Origin: Catellatospora sichuanensis
Lineage (GTDB): Bacteria > Actinomycetota > Actinomycetes > Mycobacteriales > Micromonosporaceae
Assembly: GCF_007483665.1 (NCBI RefSeq)
Contig: NZ_VIQO01000038.1
Span: forward strand, 62,001-126,000
DNA length: 64,000 bases
Direction of reading: 5' to 3'
Under the pieces are notes generated by a model that was not told the origin of the DNA, did not search any database, and saw only the letters and a list, made by a program, of their open reading frames with translations. Below, in pieces: positions 4,035-59,064 of this stretch (position 1 is its first letter; every line of letters begins with the position of its first letter). A program made the position numbers and the translations under genes.

Positions 4035-5012
4035 ATGGAGTACATGAAGCTGGGCCGCACCGGCCTGGACGTGTCCCGGCTGAGCCTGGGCTGCATGAGC
4101 TACGGCGAGCCGGGCCTGGGCAGCCACACCTGGACGCTGCCCGAGGACGAGTCCCGCCCGTTCATCAAGCGCGCGCTGGAGCTCGGGGTCAACTTCTTCG
4201 ACACCGCCAACGTGTACTCGCTGGGCAGCAGTGAGGAGATCCTGGGCCGGGCGCTGCGCGACTTCGCCGACCGCGACGAGGTCGTCATCGCGACCAAGGT
4301 GTGGGGTCCGATGCGCGAGGGACCCAACGGCCGCGGCCTGTCCCGCAAGGCGATCATGACGGAGATCGACCACAGCCTGCGCCGGCTCGGCACCGACTAC
4401 GTCGACCTGTACCAGATCCACCGGTTCGACCCGGCGACGCCGCTGGAGGAGACCCTGGAGGCGCTGCACGACGTGGTCAAGGCGGGCAAGGCGCGCTACC
4501 TCGGCGCGTCCTCGATGTACGCCTGGCAGTTCGCCAAGGCGCTGCACACCGCCGACGCGCACGGCTGGACCCGGTTCGCCACCATGCAGAACCACTACAA
4601 CCTGATCTACCGCGAGGAGGAGCGGGAGATGCTGCCGCTCTGCCTCGACGAGGGCATCGGGGTGATCCCGTGGAGCCCGCTGGCCCGCGGCCGGCTGACC
4701 CGCGAGCCCGACGCCGTCACCGCCCGCACCAAGGACGACGCCTTCGGCGAGGGCCTCTACGCCCCGACCGAGGCGGCCGACGCCGCGGTGGTCGCCGAGG
4801 TCGGCCGGATCGCCCGCGAGCGCGGCGTGCCCCGGGCCCAGATCGCGCTGGCCTGGGTGGCGAGCCGGCCGGGCGTGGTCGCACCGATCGTCGGCGCGAC
4901 GAAACCGCAGCACCTGGAGGACGCGGTGGCCGCATTGGACCTCACGCTGAGCGCGGCCGAGGTGGCCGCGCTGGAGAAGCCCTACGAGCCGCACCGGATC
5001 GCCGGGCAGTGA
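4035..5012 (+). CDS. Aldo/keto reductase
   Basis: NADPH-dependent oxidoreductase with the TIM-barrel aldo/keto reductase fold, 325 residues. The catalytic tetrad is visible: Asp56 (FFDTA), Tyr61 (NVYSLG), Lys88 (IATKVWG) and His129 (LYQIHRF). The late phosphate-binding region PIVGATKPQHLEDA is also present. The N-terminus MEYMKLGRTGLDVSRLSLG is typical of the YajO/Tas-like group acting on small carbonyl compounds; the true substrate is unknown. The ATG start has AAGGA a few bases upstream. Confidence 0.93.
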   Translation: MEYMKLGRTGLDVSRLSLGCMSYGEPGLGSHTWTLPEDESRPFIKRALELGVNFFDTANVYSLGSSEEILGRALRDFADRDEVVIATKVWGPMREGPNGRGLSRKAIMTEIDHSLRRLGTDYVDLYQIHRFDPATPLEETLEALHDVVKAGKARYLGASSMYAWQFAKALHTADAHGWTRFATMQNHYNLIYREEEREMLPLCLDEGIGVIPWSPLARGRLTREPDAVTARTKDDAFGEGLYAPTEAADAAVVAEVGRIARERGVPRAQIALAWVASRPGVVAPIVGATKPQHLEDAVAALDLTLSAAEVAALEKPYEPHRIAGQ

Positions 5013-5104
5013 CACGCGCGGACCGGCGTGCGAACCGGTAGCGTGTGCCCAGCCGTGGCAGGTGCCACACACAGACATGACGGTCGGCGGAGATTCGAGG
5101 ACTC

Positions 5105-5797
5105 GTGAGCGGACAGGTGAAGGACCGGGCCGACAGCGCCCGGCGGGCGAGCAAGGCGGAGCGGCGGGAGGCCCGGGTCGCCGCGGCGCGGGCGGCCAAG
5201 CGCAGGAAGATCCTGTACGGCCTGCTCGGCACGTTCTTCGGCACGATCCTGCTGATCGGTTTCGCCTTCGTGGTGTTCAAGGACGGCGGCGGCGACAACT
5301 CGACGGCCTCGCAGCCCGACGCCTCGGCCAGCGCCGGTGCGAGCCCGGCGGCGGACCCCAACGCCGCCGACCCGAACGCCCCCGCGCCCGACGCGAAGTT
5401 CCCGCCGCTGCCCGCGGGCGCCGACCCCGCGCTGGGCACCAAGCCGGTGGTCACCAAGGGTGCGGGCACGCCGAAGGAGCTGAAGGTCACCATGCTCATC
5501 GAGGGCAAGGGCCCTGCGGTGAAGTCGGGCGAGACCATCCTGGTGAACTACGTGGGCGTCAAGTACGCCACCGGCGAGCAGTTCGACGCGTCCTGGGACA
5601 ACAAGCAGGCCTACCCCGTGCCGATCGGCGCCGGCCAGGTCATCAAGGGCTGGGACCAGGGCCTCGTCGGGGTGAAGGTCGGCAGCCGCGTGCAGCTCGA
5701 CATCCCGTCCGACCTGGCGTACGGCGACGGCCCGGACGCCCGGCTGCCCGGCCCGCTGCGCTTCGTCGTCGACGTGCTCGCGATCCAACCCGCCTGA
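5105..5797 (+). CDS. Membrane-anchored FKBP-type peptidyl-prolyl isomerase
   Basis: A 230-residue protein with a basic N-terminal cytoplasmic stretch rich in Arg and Lys (1-35), one membrane segment at about 36-58, a low-complexity linker rich in Ala, Asp and Pro (60-110), and a C-terminal FKBP domain (about 126-230). Family motifs include FDASWDN, VIKGWDQGLVGVKVGSR and the closing FVVDVLAI strand. It should speed proline isomerisation in proteins folding outside the membrane. The GTG start is preceded by a GA-rich stretch. A strong hairpin terminator follows at 5815-5850. Confidence 0.9.
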   Translation: MSGQVKDRADSARRASKAERREARVAAARAAKRRKILYGLLGTFFGTILLIGFAFVVFKDGGGDNSTASQPDASASAGASPAADPNAADPNAPAPDAKFPPLPAGADPALGTKPVVTKGAGTPKELKVTMLIEGKGPAVKSGETILVNYVGVKYATGEQFDASWDNKQAYPVPIGAGQVIKGWDQGLVGVKVGSRVQLDIPSDLAYGDGPDARLPGPLRFVVDVLAIQPA

Positions 5798-5814
5798 TCC
5801 GCGTCCCTCGCGGC

Positions 5815-5850
5815 ACTCCGCCCCGGCTGCCCTGGCAGCCGGGGCGGAGT
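5815..5850 (+). terminator. Hairpin terminator after the FKBP gene
   Basis: A perfect 17-base inverted repeat (5815-5831 paired with 5834-5850) separated by only CT, starting 18 bases after the FKBP stop codon. It lacks a T run, as is common for actinobacterial intrinsic terminators. Confidence 0.8.
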
Positions 5851-6019
5851 CGTCTGCGGCCACGAGCGCGGCGTCGCGAGCAGCCGAATGCGCAAATCAC
5901 CTCATATCCGCGCCCATCGGGCTATGGTCGAGCAGCGGAACATGGTTCGCCCGGTGCGCCGCCACGCTCGCGGCTCGGCGGCCCGTCCACGTTCCGCGGG
6001 CGGCACGAAGGAGAGGGCG

Positions 6020-6265
6020 ATGGCAACGAGCAAGATCAGCTGGATCACCGCCGGGCTGGTGTCCGCGGCGGCCGCAGGTGTGGGCGCCGTGGTGGCGTAC
6101 CGGCGCCGCCGCACCCAGGCGAACGAGGACAGTTACACGGCACTGGCCGGGCTCAGCTCACACCAGAACGGCAAGCACAAGAAGGAACGGATCCCGCGCA
6201 AGCTCAAGAAGAGCCGCGCGCACGCCGACGCGCTGGCCTCCGGGCACGGCGGCCAGCACTGGTGA
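6020..6265 (+). CDS. Small single-pass membrane protein, function unknown
   Basis: I do not recognise a named family. The 81-residue product has a short polar start, one membrane segment (about residues 7-27, alanine/valine/glycine rich), a YRRRR stop-transfer cluster, then a lysine/arginine-rich cytoplasmic tail ending SGHGGQHW. ATG 6020 was chosen over an upstream in-frame ATG at 5888 because AAGGAGAGG sits directly before it. The gene converges on the DUF1684 gene with only three bases between the stop codons. Confidence 0.7.
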   Translation: MATSKISWITAGLVSAAAAGVGAVVAYRRRRTQANEDSYTALAGLSSHQNGKHKKERIPRKLKKSRAHADALASGHGGQHW

Positions 6266-6268
6266 GGC

Positions 6269-7060
6269 TCAGCGGGGCGTACGCTCCCCCGCCTCCACCG
6301 CGATCGCCAGCAGGTTCTCCGGCGGCGGCAGCGGGCAGGTGCCGTATTCGGTGAACGCGCAGGGCATGTTGACGGCGCGGTTGAAGTCGACGACCACCGC
6401 GCCGTCCACGCCCGGCTCGGCCACCGACAGCGAGCGCGCCCCGCCGTGCGTCGACACGCCGCTGGTCGCGTCGCGGAACAGCACGGACAGGCTGCCGTCA
6501 CCGGCGTCCATGGCGGTCAGCGCCTGCGCCACCCCGTCGACCTCGAAGCGCAGCACGCCGCGGGCGATCTGGTCGTGGGTGAGCCCCGCGATCACCGCGC
6601 CGACGGTGACCGGGCGGGGCGTCTCATAAGCCTCGAAGACCGCGTCCAGCGCCCAGCGTGCGTCGAGCGCGAACGTCGGCACGCCGGTGAAGCCGGTCCG
6701 GGTGGGCGCCCGGGGGTCGCGCACGCGCAGGGCGTACGCCCCGCCGCGTTGGATGATCTCGATGAGCCGGTCGCCGTGGTCGAGTGTGATGCCGGCGCCG
6801 CCCTCGACCGGGCTGAGCACCAGCTCACCCTCGACGGGTTCACCCGCATGGCTGAGCCCGTCGGCGGCCTCGGCCAGCAGCAGCGCGCCGTCGTCGTGCA
6901 CGCTCCAGCGCCCCGGCACGCCGGGCAGCGTGACCCCCTCGGCGGGCAGCCAGTGCAGCGCGGTGAGGCTCAGCCAGCCGTGGGGTTCGCGCAGCTCCTG
7001 CTCGCGGGCGGCACGCCAGGCGTCCCACTCCTCGACCAGCGTCTGGGGGTCGACGGCCAT
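6269..7060 (-). CDS. DUF1684 domain-containing protein
   Basis: 263 residues that match the conserved DUF1684 family. Recognisable parts are WRAAREQELREPHGWLSLT near the N-terminus, a central DxR-containing beta-rich part, and the C-terminal signature DFNRAVNMPCAFTEYG followed by TCPLPPPENLL. The family has no established enzymatic role, and conserved Asn, Cys and Glu residues in the C-terminal block hint at a binding pocket. Start at 7060: GAGGAGG precedes this ATG, whereas the longer frame to 7105 has no such site. Confidence 0.85.
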   Translation of the reverse strand: MAVDPQTLVEEWDAWRAAREQELREPHGWLSLTALHWLPAEGVTLPGVPGRWSVHDDGALLLAEAADGLSHAGEPVEGELVLSPVEGGAGITLDHGDRLIEIIQRGGAYALRVRDPRAPTRTGFTGVPTFALDARWALDAVFEAYETPRPVTVGAVIAGLTHDQIARGVLRFEVDGVAQALTAMDAGDGSLSVLFRDATSGVSTHGGARSLSVAEPGVDGAVVVDFNRAVNMPCAFTEYGTCPLPPPENLLAIAVEAGERTPR

Positions 7061-7214
7061 GTCGTGCCCTCCTCCTCGGCGACGGGGCTCCCGGCAGCCT
7101 GCCACGGCAGCAGCGCTCTCGCAAGATCAGCACAGGTGCCCAACGGGTTCCCCCGAGTGACCAGACCCCCCTCAGCCGAACCGGCCATCCCGGACCCGGG
7201 CCGGACTCTCCTGC

Positions 7215-54866: not shown

Positions 54867-55832
54867 TCAGCGACGCAGTACGGCGTAGACGTCCTCGGGG
54901 GTGAGGATGCCGAGGACGTCGTTCCCGTCGCGGACCGCGACCCAGCCGGTTTCGCCCTCCAGCAGCGCGGCGAGCGCGTCGCGCAGCGAGCCGTCCACCG
55001 GCACCGACGGGGCCTCGTGGTCGCCGTCGGGCAGCGGGCGCAGGCCTTCACGCGGGATCGGGGTGACCGCCAGCAGCTTAATGCCGCGGTCCGCGCCGAC
55101 GAACTCGGCGACGAACGTGTTCGCCGGCTTCGACAGCACCTCGGCCGGGGGCGCGAACTGCTCCAGCTGGCCGCCCTCGGACAACACCGCGATCCGGTCG
55201 CCGAGCCGCACCGCCTCGTCGACGTCGTGGGTGACGAAGACGATGGTCTTGCGGACCGTCTGCTGCAGGCGCAGGAACTCGTCCTGCAGCCGCCCGCGCA
55301 CGATCGGGTCGACGGCCGAGAACGGCTCGTCCATCAGCAGCACCACCGGGTCGGCGGCCAAGGCCCGGGCCACCCCGACGCGCTGGCGCTGCCCGCCGGA
55401 CAGCTCGTGCGGATAACGGTCGGCGTAGCGGGCCGGGTCGAGGCCGACCAGGTCCAGCAGCTCCGCGGTGCGCTCGGCGACCTGCCCCTTGGGCCAGCCG
55501 AGCAGCTTCGGCACGGTGCCGACGTTGTCGCGTACGGTCTGGTGCGGGAACAGGCCCACGTTCTGGATGACGTATCCGATGCGCCGCCGCAGCGCGATCG
55601 GGTCCACCGCGGTGATCTCGTCGTCGCCGAGCCACATCCGCCCGCCCGACGGCTCGATCAGCCGGTTGATCATCCGCAGGATGGTGGACTTGCCGCAGCC
55701 CGACGGCCCGACCAGCACGGTCAGCTCGCCGGCGGGCAGCTCCAGACTCAGCTCGCGGACCGCGACCGTGCCGCCGTCGTACTGCTTGCGTACGCCCTCC
55801 AACCTGATCGACACCGCAGCGGTACGGTTCAC
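54867..55832 (-). CDS. Glycine betaine/choline-type ABC importer ATPase
   Basis: 321 residues with Walker A GPSGCGKST, signature LSGGQRQR, Walker B VVLLMDEPFSAVD and H-loop VTHDVDEAV. The C-terminal part (about 240-321) holds a CBS-type module, common in OpuA/ProV ATPases and used in osmotic or nucleotide sensing. It matches the two permeases on the opposite strand. Its GTG start is only two bases from the divergent permease ATG, leaving no room for untranslated leaders of the usual length. Confidence 0.9.
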   Translation of the reverse strand: MNRTAAVSIRLEGVRKQYDGGTVAVRELSLELPAGELTVLVGPSGCGKSTILRMINRLIEPSGGRMWLGDDEITAVDPIALRRRIGYVIQNVGLFPHQTVRDNVGTVPKLLGWPKGQVAERTAELLDLVGLDPARYADRYPHELSGGQRQRVGVARALAADPVVLLMDEPFSAVDPIVRGRLQDEFLRLQQTVRKTIVFVTHDVDEAVRLGDRIAVLSEGGQLEQFAPPAEVLSKPANTFVAEFVGADRGIKLLAVTPIPREGLRPLPDGDHEAPSVPVDGSLRDALAALLEGETGWVAVRDGNDVLGILTPEDVYAVLRR

Positions 55833-55834
55833 CT

Positions 55835-56548
55835 ATGCCCTCCAAGGTCAACGACGCCGTGCTCGGCCTGGGCGCACCGGGCGACGATCCGCGCAACCCC
55901 TGGTTCTCCTGGAGCTACGTCAGCCAGAACACCGACACCCTGCTCGCCGCGCTACGCGAACACCTCATGCTGACCTTAGTCGCCGTGGCACTGGCGACGG
56001 TGATCGCGATCCCGCTGGCGATCCTGGCGTACCGCGTCGGCGCGCTGTCCGGGCCGATCCTCGGTTTCACCGGTGTGCTCTACACCGTCCCCTCGCTCGC
56101 GCTGTTCGCGTTCCTCGCGCCGTTCACGGGCATCGTCCAGCCCACCGCCGTGCTGATCGGACTGACGATGTACGCGCTGCTCACCATCGTGCGCAACACG
56201 TTGACCGCACTGCGCCAGGTGCCCGCCGACGTGCTCGACAGCGCCCGCGGCATGGGCTACGGCAGGCGCGCCATGCTGTGGCGCATCGAGCTGCCGCTGG
56301 CGCTGCCCGGCATCATGACCGGCCTGCGCATCGCCACGGTCTCCACGGTGGCGCTGGTCACGGTCGGCGAGATCGCCGGCTGGGGCGGCCTCGGCGAACT
56401 GATCATCGGCGGCTTCAACAGCAACTACTACCGTCCGCAGATCATGACGGCGACGCTGCTCTGCGTGGCCCTCGCCCTGGTCCTCGACCTGGTCCTGCTC
56501 GCCGTGGGCCGCGTCATCATGCCCTGGACCCGGCGGAGGACCGCATGA
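55835..56548 (+). CDS. Glycine betaine/choline-type ABC importer permease 1
   Basis: 237 residues with about five or six membrane helices. The permease loop EAA-like motif is seen in DVLDSARGMGYGRRAMLWRI. NPWFSWSYVSQN near the start is typical of OpuAB/ProW-like permeases. No ribosome binding site precedes ATG 55835; TACGGT seven bases upstream could be a -10 box giving a leaderless mRNA. Its TGA overlaps the first of two small leader ORFs (ATGA) that separate it from the second permease. Confidence 0.88.
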   Translation: MPSKVNDAVLGLGAPGDDPRNPWFSWSYVSQNTDTLLAALREHLMLTLVAVALATVIAIPLAILAYRVGALSGPILGFTGVLYTVPSLALFAFLAPFTGIVQPTAVLIGLTMYALLTIVRNTLTALRQVPADVLDSARGMGYGRRAMLWRIELPLALPGIMTGLRIATVSTVALVTVGEIAGWGGLGELIIGGFNSNYYRPQIMTATLLCVALALVLDLVLLAVGRVIMPWTRRRTA

Positions 56549-56686: not shown

Positions 56687-56690
56687 ATGA
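56616..56690 (+). CDS. Small leader ORF of the ERSEE family, unit 2
   Basis: Second copy of the 24-codon frame. It begins inside the stop of unit 1 and its TGA overlaps the ATG of permease 2. Together the chain permease 1, unit 1, unit 2, permease 2 is linked through three consecutive ATGA overlaps, so ribosomes could pass from one permease to the other without release. Confidence 0.5.
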   Translation: MSERKRANQGPTTHAADERSEEKA

Positions 56691-57412
56691 GCGTGATCGA
56701 CGACGCGATCGTCTGGCTGAACGATCCGCTGAACTGGACCAATCCGGACGGGATCATCTCGCGCACGGGGGAGCACCTGTGGATCTCCGCGGCCGCGGTG
56801 GCCCTGGGCTGCGCGGTCGCCTGGCCGCTGGGCGTGTGGATGGGGCACGTCGGCCGCGGCGGCGCCGCGGTGGTGACGGTGACCAACCTCAGCCGCGCCG
56901 TGCCCACGGTCGCGCTGCTCACCATCTTCCCGCTCACCGCGATCGGCTTCGGCCCGAAGGCGATCATCCTGGCGCTGTCCCTGTTCGCGATCCCGCCACT
57001 GCTGGCCAACGCCTACCTGGGCGTGCGTGAGGTCGATCCGGAGGTGCGCGACGCGGGCCGGGGCATGGGCCTGTCCGCCTGGCAGCTGCTGCGCAAGGTC
57101 GAGCTGCCGCTCGCGGTGCCGTATCTGGCCAACGGGTTCCGCATCGCCGCGGTGCAGGTCGTGGCGACCGCCACCCTGGCGGCGTTCGTCAACGGCGGCG
57201 GCCTCGGCATGATCATCAGCCGGGGCTTCGGGCTGGGCCTGGCCTCGGGAGGCGGCCAGGTGCTGGCCGGCGGCATGCTGGTGGCGCTGCTCTGCCTGAC
57301 CATCGAGGGTGTGCTCGCCCTCATCGAGAAGGCGCTGCTGCCGAAGTCGCTGCGCCGCGTCAAGCACCGTCCCCCGGCTTCGGTCGCCGACGCGCTGCCC
57401 GCCGGATCCTGA
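56687..57412 (+). CDS. Glycine betaine/choline-type ABC importer permease 2
   Basis: 241 residues with about six membrane helices. The coupling loop EVRDAGRGMGLSAWQLLRKV is the typical EAA motif; GRGGAAVVTVTNLSRAVPTV is typical of the family. It pairs with permease 1. GAGGAG in the upstream repeat is the ribosome site for ATG 56687. A convergent HAD gene ends 26 bases after its stop, without a hairpin. Confidence 0.88.
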   Translation: MSVIDDAIVWLNDPLNWTNPDGIISRTGEHLWISAAAVALGCAVAWPLGVWMGHVGRGGAAVVTVTNLSRAVPTVALLTIFPLTAIGFGPKAIILALSLFAIPPLLANAYLGVREVDPEVRDAGRGMGLSAWQLLRKVELPLAVPYLANGFRIAAVQVVATATLAAFVNGGGLGMIISRGFGLGLASGGGQVLAGGMLVALLCLTIEGVLALIEKALLPKSLRRVKHRPPASVADALPAGS

Positions 57413-57438: not shown

Positions 57439-57843
57439 TCAGAGCAGGCCGCGGTCGCGCAGCAGCTCGAAAAGCCGGTTGTTGTCGCAGAACAGCACGC
57501 TGTCGATCCCGGCGGCCGTGCCGCCCGCGACGTAGACCGGCTTGTCGTCGACGAACAGGCATTCGTCGGGCGTACGCCCGATCTCGGCCAGGGCCCGCTC
57601 GAAGAACGCCCGCTGCGGCTTCAGAAAACCTATCTCGTACGACACCAGCACCCCGCTGATGCCGGGCCGCCCGCCCAGCAGCTCACGGATCACAGCCGCG
57701 CGGCGCGGGCTCTGATTGGTGACCAGGTACACGCCGTCGACCGCGAGCCGGGGCAGCACGGCCAGCAACTCCTCGTTGGGATCGAGGCTGCCCGCGGGCA
57801 CCAGCAGCACGCCGTCCACGTCGAGCAGCAGCGTCGTCACCAC
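57439..57843 (-). CDS. Small HAD-family hydrolase
   Basis: 134 residues, a minimal HAD domain without a large cap. LLLDVDGVLLVP (Asp8, Asp10), LVTNQSP (motif II), GFLKPQ (Lys) and CLFVDDKPV (motif IV) are present, so a phosphatase activity is plausible. It stands on the minus strand between the permeases and the binding protein of the importer, so it separates that operon. Confidence 0.8.
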   Translation of the reverse strand: MVTTLLLDVDGVLLVPAGSLDPNEELLAVLPRLAVDGVYLVTNQSPRRAAVIRELLGGRPGISGVLVSYEIGFLKPQRAFFERALAEIGRTPDECLFVDDKPVYVAGGTAAGIDSVLFCDNNRLFELLRDRGLL

Positions 57844-58059
57844 GCGACCAGCCTAGGCCCGCGCAGGTCGCACCCCGCATGACGTCGATCACCCGGGGTT
57901 TCCACGCCAAGCCGCTGACCTGCGGATGTGAACGGTTTGCGAATTGTCAGGCGCGGGTAGGCGAGCGCGGTTCACGAATTCATCGCAAGGATGTCTCAGG
58001 TACGCGGTAAGAAAGACCTTTGCACATTATTTCGCAGTGAAGACGACGGAAGGCTGAAT

Positions 58060-59064
58060 ATGGCAACGCACACCCGGAGGGCGTCCGTCCTCCTGCTGGC
58101 CGGTGTCACCGCGGCGGCGTTCGCGCTGACCGGCTGCGGGCAGGCCGGTTCCTCGGGCACGGAGGCACCGGCCACCGCCTCGGGCGCCGGCTGCGCGCCG
58201 GTCGCCGGCGACCAGCTCGTGGTCCTCGACGATGACAAGCACCTGCAGAACACCGACAACGTCGTCGCCGTCGCCAACGCCAAGCGGGCCACCCCCGCAC
58301 TGCTCGCGGCCGTGGACAAGGTCGCGGCGGCGCTGGACACCCCGAAGCTGATCGCGCTGAACAAGGCGGTCGAGGTCGAGCGCAAGACCTCCGAGGTCGC
58401 GGCGCAGGAGTTCGCGGCGCAGGCGGGCCTGACCACCGGCCTGTCCGGCGGCACCGGCCCGGTGGTGGTCGGCGCGGCGAACTTCCCCGAGAGCAAGACC
58501 CTCGCCGAGCTGTACAAGATCGCGCTGAACGCGGCGGGCTTCCAGGCCACCGTGCAGGTCTCGGGCAACCGCGAGCTCTACGAGCCGGCCTTGGAGCGCG
58601 GCGAGCTGACGGTGTTCCCCGAGTACGCCGCGACCCTCACCGAGTTCCTGAACCAGAAGCAGAACGGCAAGGACGCCGCAGCCAAGGCCAGCGGTGACCT
58701 CAACGCCACCGTGGCGGCCCTGAAGGAGCTGGCCACCAAGGCCGGGCTGACCGTGGGCACGCCGTCGGCCGCCGCGGACCAGAACGCGTACGCGGTGACC
58801 AAGGCGTTCGCCGACCAGCACCAGGTGAAGACGCTGTCGGACTTCGCGGCGAAGTGCTCCGGCCAGGCCACCGTGCTGGCCGGTCCGCCGGAGTGCCCGC
58901 AGCGCTCGTTCTGCAAGCCGGGCCTGGAGAAGACCTACGGCATCACGTTCGGCTCGTTCCAGCAGGCCGACGCCGGCGGCCCGCAGAGCAAGACCGCGGT
59001 GACCACCGGCAAGGCCACCCTCGGCATGGTCTTCTCGTCCGACGGCAGCCTCGCCACCAACTGA
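58060..59064 (+). CDS. Glycine betaine-type substrate-binding lipoprotein, apparently permuted
   Basis: 334 residues with a lipoprotein signal (LTGC, Cys26). It delivers betaine, choline or a related compound to the importer encoded just upstream. The domain order is unusual. LVVLDDDKHLQNTDNVV and the helix pair that follow, which normally end an OpuAC-type protein, come first (about 50-125). Then GPVVVGAANFPESKTLAEL, the usual beginning, follows, and the product ends FSSDGSLATN, the point just before that C-terminal block in normal relatives. GGAAGG precedes ATG 58060. Confidence 0.85.
   Translation: MATHTRRASVLLLAGVTAAAFALTGCGQAGSSGTEAPATASGAGCAPVAGDQLVVLDDDKHLQNTDNVVAVANAKRATPALLAAVDKVAAALDTPKLIALNKAVEVERKTSEVAAQEFAAQAGLTTGLSGGTGPVVVGAANFPESKTLAELYKIALNAAGFQATVQVSGNRELYEPALERGELTVFPEYAATLTEFLNQKQNGKDAAAKASGDLNATVAALKELATKAGLTVGTPSAAADQNAYAVTKAFADQHQVKTLSDFAAKCSGQATVLAGPPECPQRSFCKPGLEKTYGITFGSFQQADAGGPQSKTAVTTGKATLGMVFSSDGSLATN

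Follow-up and report, generated by a model that had tools for sequence, protein, structure and literature searches.

A circularly permuted OpuAC-fold lipoprotein of an ABC importer in Catellatospora sichuanensis and its permuted relatives in the Actinomycetota

The window, that is the whole stretch of 64,000 nucleotides of Catellatospora sichuanensis DNA analysed here, contains a gene for a predicted lipoprotein in which the two parts of an OpuAC domain follow each other in swapped order. It raises the question of whether this protein is a circular permutation or a truncated domain with something added, and, if permuted, how such an order arose and what the protein binds. The gene (58060..59064, forward strand) runs from an ATG at 58060, preceded by GGAAGG at 58048-58053, six bases 5' of the start codon, to a stop codon at 59062-59064, and encodes 334 amino acids. 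Residues 1-26 (58060..58137) were recognised by eye as a hydrophobic lipoprotein signal peptide followed by a lipobox ending in ALTGC, with processing predicted at Cys26, a residue that is invariant in the 41 proteins of alignment A1.

Order of the OpuAC blocks and predicted fold

OpuAC (PF04069) was the sole Pfam family found in the binding protein, with a score of 116.1 bits against a gathering cut-off of 21.2, and it was found in two stretches that are not colinear with the profile. Residues 52-120 (58213..58419; 120213-120419 in genome coordinates) match profile positions 187-256 and come ahead of residues 134-332 (58459..59055; 120459-121055 in the genome), which match positions 2-184. 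Between them, a new Gly/Ser-rich linker of residues 121-133 (58420..58458) leads from the old C-terminus to the old N-terminus. We infer that the moved block comprises the last strand of lobe II, hinge strand 2 and the C-terminal helices of lobe I, and that residues 134-332 comprise the N-terminal part of lobe I, hinge strand 1 and most of lobe II.

Each block was recognisable by itself. Scored alone, the N-terminal 133 residues gave 35.1 bits (E 1.4e-8; profile 187-256) and the remaining 201 residues 89.2 bits (E 4.2e-25; profile 2-184), so that both lie far beyond chance. Rotation in silico, with residues 134-334 placed before residues 46-133, restored a single continuous domain match in which positions 1-276 cover profile 2-256 at 130.9 bits. 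A sequence search of the PDB gave the same picture, the native order matching each of 4nd9, 5teu and 5uve in two pieces and the rotated order matching each in one piece with a better E-value (from 4.7e-12 to 2.3e-15 for 4nd9); the single stretch of the rotated protein extended over 10-279 on 4nd9 and 1-286 on 4wep. Identity to four normal-order actinobacterial relatives (L172-L175) was 43-52% in the moved block and 51-55% in the rest of the protein, and the moved block was also 45% identical to another normal protein, L124. A circular permutation and not a truncation, as claimed by an earlier sequence-only reading of this DNA, is confirmed at the sequence level by the profile order, the rotation and the blockwise identity to the same normal-order relatives. 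This order is referred to below as type A.

Two details of that reading concerned the ends of the chain. The moved block had been described as following the lipobox directly; the swapped order stands, but a low-confidence tail and a CAPVAGDQ segment intervene after Cys26. The C-terminus had been placed exactly at the normal junction, and this agrees with the sequences of L172-L175, which go from SSDG via a few residues into LVVLTDD or similar; in 231 of 232 aligned type A proteins the chain ends 0-4 residues beyond the end of the profile match, and in the remaining one five residues beyond it.

It is barely conceivable that the N-terminal block is instead a separate domain added before a full normal domain, or that a truncated domain carries an unrelated extension. 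Pfam's best stretch does span only residues 134-332, as such a protein would show, but the N-terminal block alone significantly matches exactly the profile positions that are missing downstream (187-256), no second copy of the moved block was matched further along the chain, the alignment of normal-order PDB chains leaves out their last part, and rotation both raises and unites the score. The part that follows the N-terminal block lacks the C-terminal block, and is therefore not a full normal-order domain behind a separate N-terminal one. Truncation and an added N-terminal domain were both ruled out on the profile pieces, the rotation and the structural alignment.

The structure prediction that had been proposed as a check returned a confident AlphaFold fold for the permuted protein (mean pLDDT 83.7, pTM 0.74; pLDDT below 50 for residues 1-41), and a two-lobed fold of the cluster F type is predicted from this model. 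Normal-order binding domains from the PDB align only to model residues ~131-334, and do so by their own first ~200 residues only. No end-to-end match to a solved structure was seen among Foldseek's best 1000 chains after re-alignment, and none of the best 50 of 1103 matches had a query TM-score above 0.46, a result that is no proof of a new topology. A permuted pair does not superpose in a sequential structural alignment, and the identity of the whole-chain fold is therefore read from the pieces together with the model. A breakpoint that cuts the second hinge and leaves one crossover was also considered and rejected: the break lies about 13 residues before the second linker position, so both hinges should remain. 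The available excerpt of the EgtU paper places N339, Y341 and Y443 in two interdomain linkers.

Gene neighbourhood and distribution

The gene adjoins the other components expected of an ABC importer, namely a ProV-like ATPase (54867..55832, reverse strand; 312.9 bits with TIGR01186, below its cut-off of 326.6) and two permeases of the BPD_transp_1 family (55835..56548 and 56687..57412, both forward). Taken from their listed start codons, the divergent frames of the ATPase and permease 1 (54867-55840) are separated by only two bases. A HAD-like hydrolase (57439..57843, reverse strand) stands between permease 2 and the binding protein and is probably outside the transport system. It was found at the same place in L006, L007, L011 and L065, all from Catellatospora, and was absent from three other fetched Catellatospora loci, and its presence sets the C. 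sichuanensis locus apart from most relatives. Of the 87 type A loci of at least 5 kb (at least two of them duplicates), 85 have the ATPase and both permeases beside the binding protein gene, and the remaining two, L047 and L067, begin too near it; the ATPase and permease match labels come in another order in 10 of these 85. These 85 loci have the ATPase in divergent orientation, unlike the loci of two further permuted orders described below, types B (eight loci) and C (two loci), where the same four genes all point in one direction.

A search for other proteins with the swapped order, which had also been suggested from the sequence, showed that, inside its own clade, this order is no exception. 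Scanning one genome per species, we kept the best 80 of 139 relatives, corresponding to 79 distinct loci (L006-L084), and all 79 had the type A order when compared with a profile built from 11 normal-order proteins. Type A loci were found in Catellatospora, Micromonospora, Dactylosporangium, Asanoa, Geodermatophilus, Blastococcus, Actinotalea and others. Protein searches gave 2182 significant matches with the native and 4019 with the rotated sequence; among the 129 proteins (P0001-P0129) drawn from the best 120 of each, 128 were of type A and one was a partial record. At least 14 of 61 genomes of the order carry both type A pieces swapped, and at least four carry a different swap. Among 394 genomes of the class, 21 matched alignment A1 at 1e-75, 17 over both blocks and four over the second block only, the latter being L172-L175, the nearest normal-order relatives. 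Among 396 genomes of the phylum, 36 matched at 1e-40, and the whole type A length was matched in only two. Type A is found mainly within the class to which C. sichuanensis belongs and is not common at the phylum level.

One type A locus, L096, has the binding protein split into two overlapping frames of 229 and 179 amino acids (4734-5793), a decayed gene or a sequencing error. Such a split is what would be expected if the permuted protein were a neutral or decaying variant and not a working binding protein, yet that appears very unlikely in view of the wide retention of the protein, the conserved operon, the pocket residues Y189, N242 and R282, all three invariant among the 232 aligned type A proteins, and the lack of a strong normal-order OpuAC gene in the C. 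sichuanensis genome, where the other three OpuAC matches are weak and barely above the cut-off (23.6-25.8 bits).

Further breakpoints and the cysteine pair

Two additional breakpoints (types B and C) were found in the same subfamily. The model of a type B protein (P0130) aligns end to end with Bacillus subtilis OpuAC (2b4l) and thus shares its topology. From 410 classified proteins, removal of seven duplicates and of one protein with more than 25% gaps left 402, and for INDEPENDENCE the pieces were set on common profile columns irrespective of order. In a first tree of 89 representatives (39 normal, 32 type A, 16 type B and two type C; LG+G4), type A without L171 formed one clade (96.9/100), a first type B group (B1, Modestobacter and others) was sister to normal-order L105 (96.6/96), a second (B2) was sister to normal-order L135 (92.1/98), and the two type C proteins formed a clade of their own (95.4/95) whose position was weakly supported. 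L171, a type A protein, grouped with normal-order L172-L175 in this maximum likelihood tree (82.2/93); monophyly of type A including L171 was not rejected (AU p 0.405). A second tree of 94 rows, with one normal gene present twice and L088 and L171 left out (Q.pfam+R5), kept these relations, placed L172-L175 as the sister of type A (97.4/100) and added a third type B group (B3; L183 and L185) beside normal-order L145 (98.6/100).

A single origin of all permuted forms was rejected by the AU test (p 3e-31, deltaL 406), as were B1+B2 (5.8e-5) and B1+B2+C (1.8e-4). For the union of B2 and B3 the two tests disagreed, AU rejecting it (0.0048) and SH not (p 0.267), and B1+B3 (AU p 7e-38) and all type B together were rejected by both tests. 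Few iterations went into the search of the constrained trees, and the likelihood differences may therefore be somewhat too large. One ancient permutation, passed on to every permuted member before breakpoints shifted or the order reverted, would fit with the placement of the new ends inside lobe II by every permutation type, with the recurrence of type B at the same place, and with B2 and B3 being close together and their union not rejected by SH. Such a history is nonetheless highly improbable, given the rejected tree and the nesting of the permuted groups beside normal-order sisters of their own (A with L172-L175, B1 with L105, B2 with L135, B3 with L145), and the AU tests rule out the permuted forms as one inherited group. 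Separate permutations are therefore preferred, and on these sequences it seems safe to count at least four (A, B1, B2/B3 and C) and probably five.

L088 may represent a sixth event, on a long branch. At this locus (5145-7073, forward strand) an OpuAC domain of type B order is fused to a PF01471 peptidoglycan-binding and a PF01522 polysaccharide deacetylase domain, and the 11 kb fetched gave no match to the ATPase or permeases of the present operon. No fused tandem, or duplicated, intermediate was present among the classified loci. Tandem pairs of separate normal-order OpuAC genes occur in related genomes (G041:C7 68008-69863, G041:C13 81066-82894 and G018:C1 84094-85881), and such neighbouring copies could be the starting point of a permutation by duplication.

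Two cysteines accompany the type A order. Cys45 (58192..58194) lies at the new N-terminus of the folded domain and Cys266 (58855..58857), its proposed partner, in the loop that follows the lobe II helix LSDF(A); both are invariant in the 41 proteins of alignment A1. The pair was counted in 234 type A sequences, which represent 228 distinct versions of the region compared: both cysteines occur in 229 and neither in two, no sequence has a single one, and in the other three the start could not be placed. The two that lack the pair (L073 and L089) group together (96.5/100) as the sister clade of the remaining type A proteins and are hence basal. The Cys266 loop has no cysteine in any of 40 normal, 129 type B and two type C proteins compared, and none of the 40 normal proteins has one just before LVVL. 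The simplest reading, suggestive only, is that the permutation came first and the cysteine pair later; L171 has both cysteines but is a poorly placed long branch. A Cys45-Cys266 disulphide is inferred from co-occurrence, which is weak evidence for a bond because the pair amounts to essentially one gain on the tree. The other pair, Cys279 and Cys285 in CPQRSFC (58894..58914), is common to 28 of the 40 normal-order proteins.

Ligand pocket, proposed mechanism and known systems

Pocket positions were transferred from EgtUC by sequence alignment. Asn replaces EgtUC Y341 in all 232 aligned type A proteins, and Asp stands at the Y443 position in 230 of them; the F293 position is Tyr and the R379 position Arg in all 232, and the Y419 position is Phe in 209. 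The four-aromatic cage of the cluster F-III binders (A. fulgidus ProX, OpuBC, OpuCC and EgtU) is therefore incomplete, two of its four positions being Asn and Asp. Tyr occupies both the Y341 and Y443 positions in seven OpuC-like normal proteins, and the four nearest normal proteins (L172-L175) already have Asn and Asp there, so that the change in the pocket preceded the permutation. The score with the NCBIfam OsmF equivalog NF049931 was 63.9 bits against a curated cut-off of 400.

The sequence-only reading had implied a betaine, choline or carnitine ligand, and the pocket residues give no support to this class. The operon type and the family names would suit a glycine betaine, choline or carnitine binder of an osmoprotectant transport system, as annotated, but two of the four cage aromatics are replaced almost throughout type A, and Mycobacterium tuberculosis ProX, also reported to be without the cage, binds polyphenols (20-70 uM) but neither betaine nor choline nor carnitine, according to the available part of that study (PMC5894108). 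On these two grounds the betaine/choline ligand and the osmoprotectant label appear doubtful for the type A protein, and the annotated function is considered unlikely.

The block order, the blockwise homology, the gene context and the recurrence of permuted orders are established from the sequences, and we hold with considerable confidence the overall reading of a permuted OpuAC-fold substrate-binding protein of a four-gene ABC importer, with a putative cysteine staple acquired later, a presumably non-classical ligand and repeated permutations in the subfamily. The permutation would have arisen by tandem duplication followed by loss of the outer parts. The chain now opens with the old C-terminal block, reaches the old N-terminus through a short new linker and stops in the segment where the moved block once began. 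With both hinge strands kept, the protein should still close on its ligand in the manner of a Venus flytrap, and both chain ends, hence the membrane tether, would sit on lobe II instead of lobe I. The later Cys45-Cys266 disulphide would pin the new N-terminal strand to lobe II, and the ligand, presumably not a classical quaternary ammonium compound, would be delivered to the neighbouring permeases.

More tentatively, and with rather less than even confidence, the cage-less ProX subfamily may be a hotspot of permutation, with at least five independent events at three breakpoints in the Actinomycetota, one of them used three times to give the topology of B. subtilis OpuAC, and with the tether moved from lobe I to lobe II. 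If so, selection may have acted on the attachment site of the lipid anchor, and the type A permutation would have been followed by a stabilising disulphide. The natural permutations found in the literature concern distant or single families, whereas here normal and permuted members are ~45-70% identical and share one operon type, and the change of order apparently recurred, which offers a natural test of the tolerance of a binding protein to re-wiring. How a tether on lobe II instead of lobe I affects docking, closing and uptake, whether the change is neutral or selected, and what follows a permutation are all testable in such a system. For annotation, linear profiles cut permuted proteins in two, and the osmoprotectant assignment is doubtful.

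Among open-access titles and abstracts, the matches listed included the CPSARST and TpMglB-2 papers, and none dealt with this actinobacterial permuted group, which is weak evidence of absence. The closest normal-order systems are the actinobacterial ProX-type proteins L172-L175, which belong to the same subfamily (50-53% identity over order-free columns) and have the same residues at the two lost cage positions and the same CP..xxC pair, but differ in their linear order and in having no cysteine in the Cys266 loop or before LVVL. M. tuberculosis ProX resembles this subfamily in the absence of the cage, and no permutation is mentioned in the available part of its description (PMC5894108). OsmF/YehZ and Archaeoglobus fulgidus ProX (4wep and 1sw1) are OpuAC-family proteins that match over the whole length after rotation and are themselves linear; glycine betaine is the ligand of A. 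fulgidus ProX, and the contacts listed in the available text include four Tyr (PMC10087775). B. subtilis OpuAC also binds glycine betaine and has been described as related to ProX proteins by circular permutation (PMC2395249, as excerpted). Trp side chains contact its ligand (PMC9732360, in the accessible portion), and its breakpoint would be other than that of type A. The closest published parallel appears to be TpMglB-2 of Treponema, which the accessible text describes as a natural permuted glucose-binding lipoprotein with relatives in other bacteria, a proposed 'Cluster Bc', and for which its authors also raised a link with membrane tethering (PMC4990184). TpMglB-2 belongs to a different fold cluster (type I/B) and, going by the same text, its permutation needs a fourth crossover, whereas type A seems to keep both original hinges.
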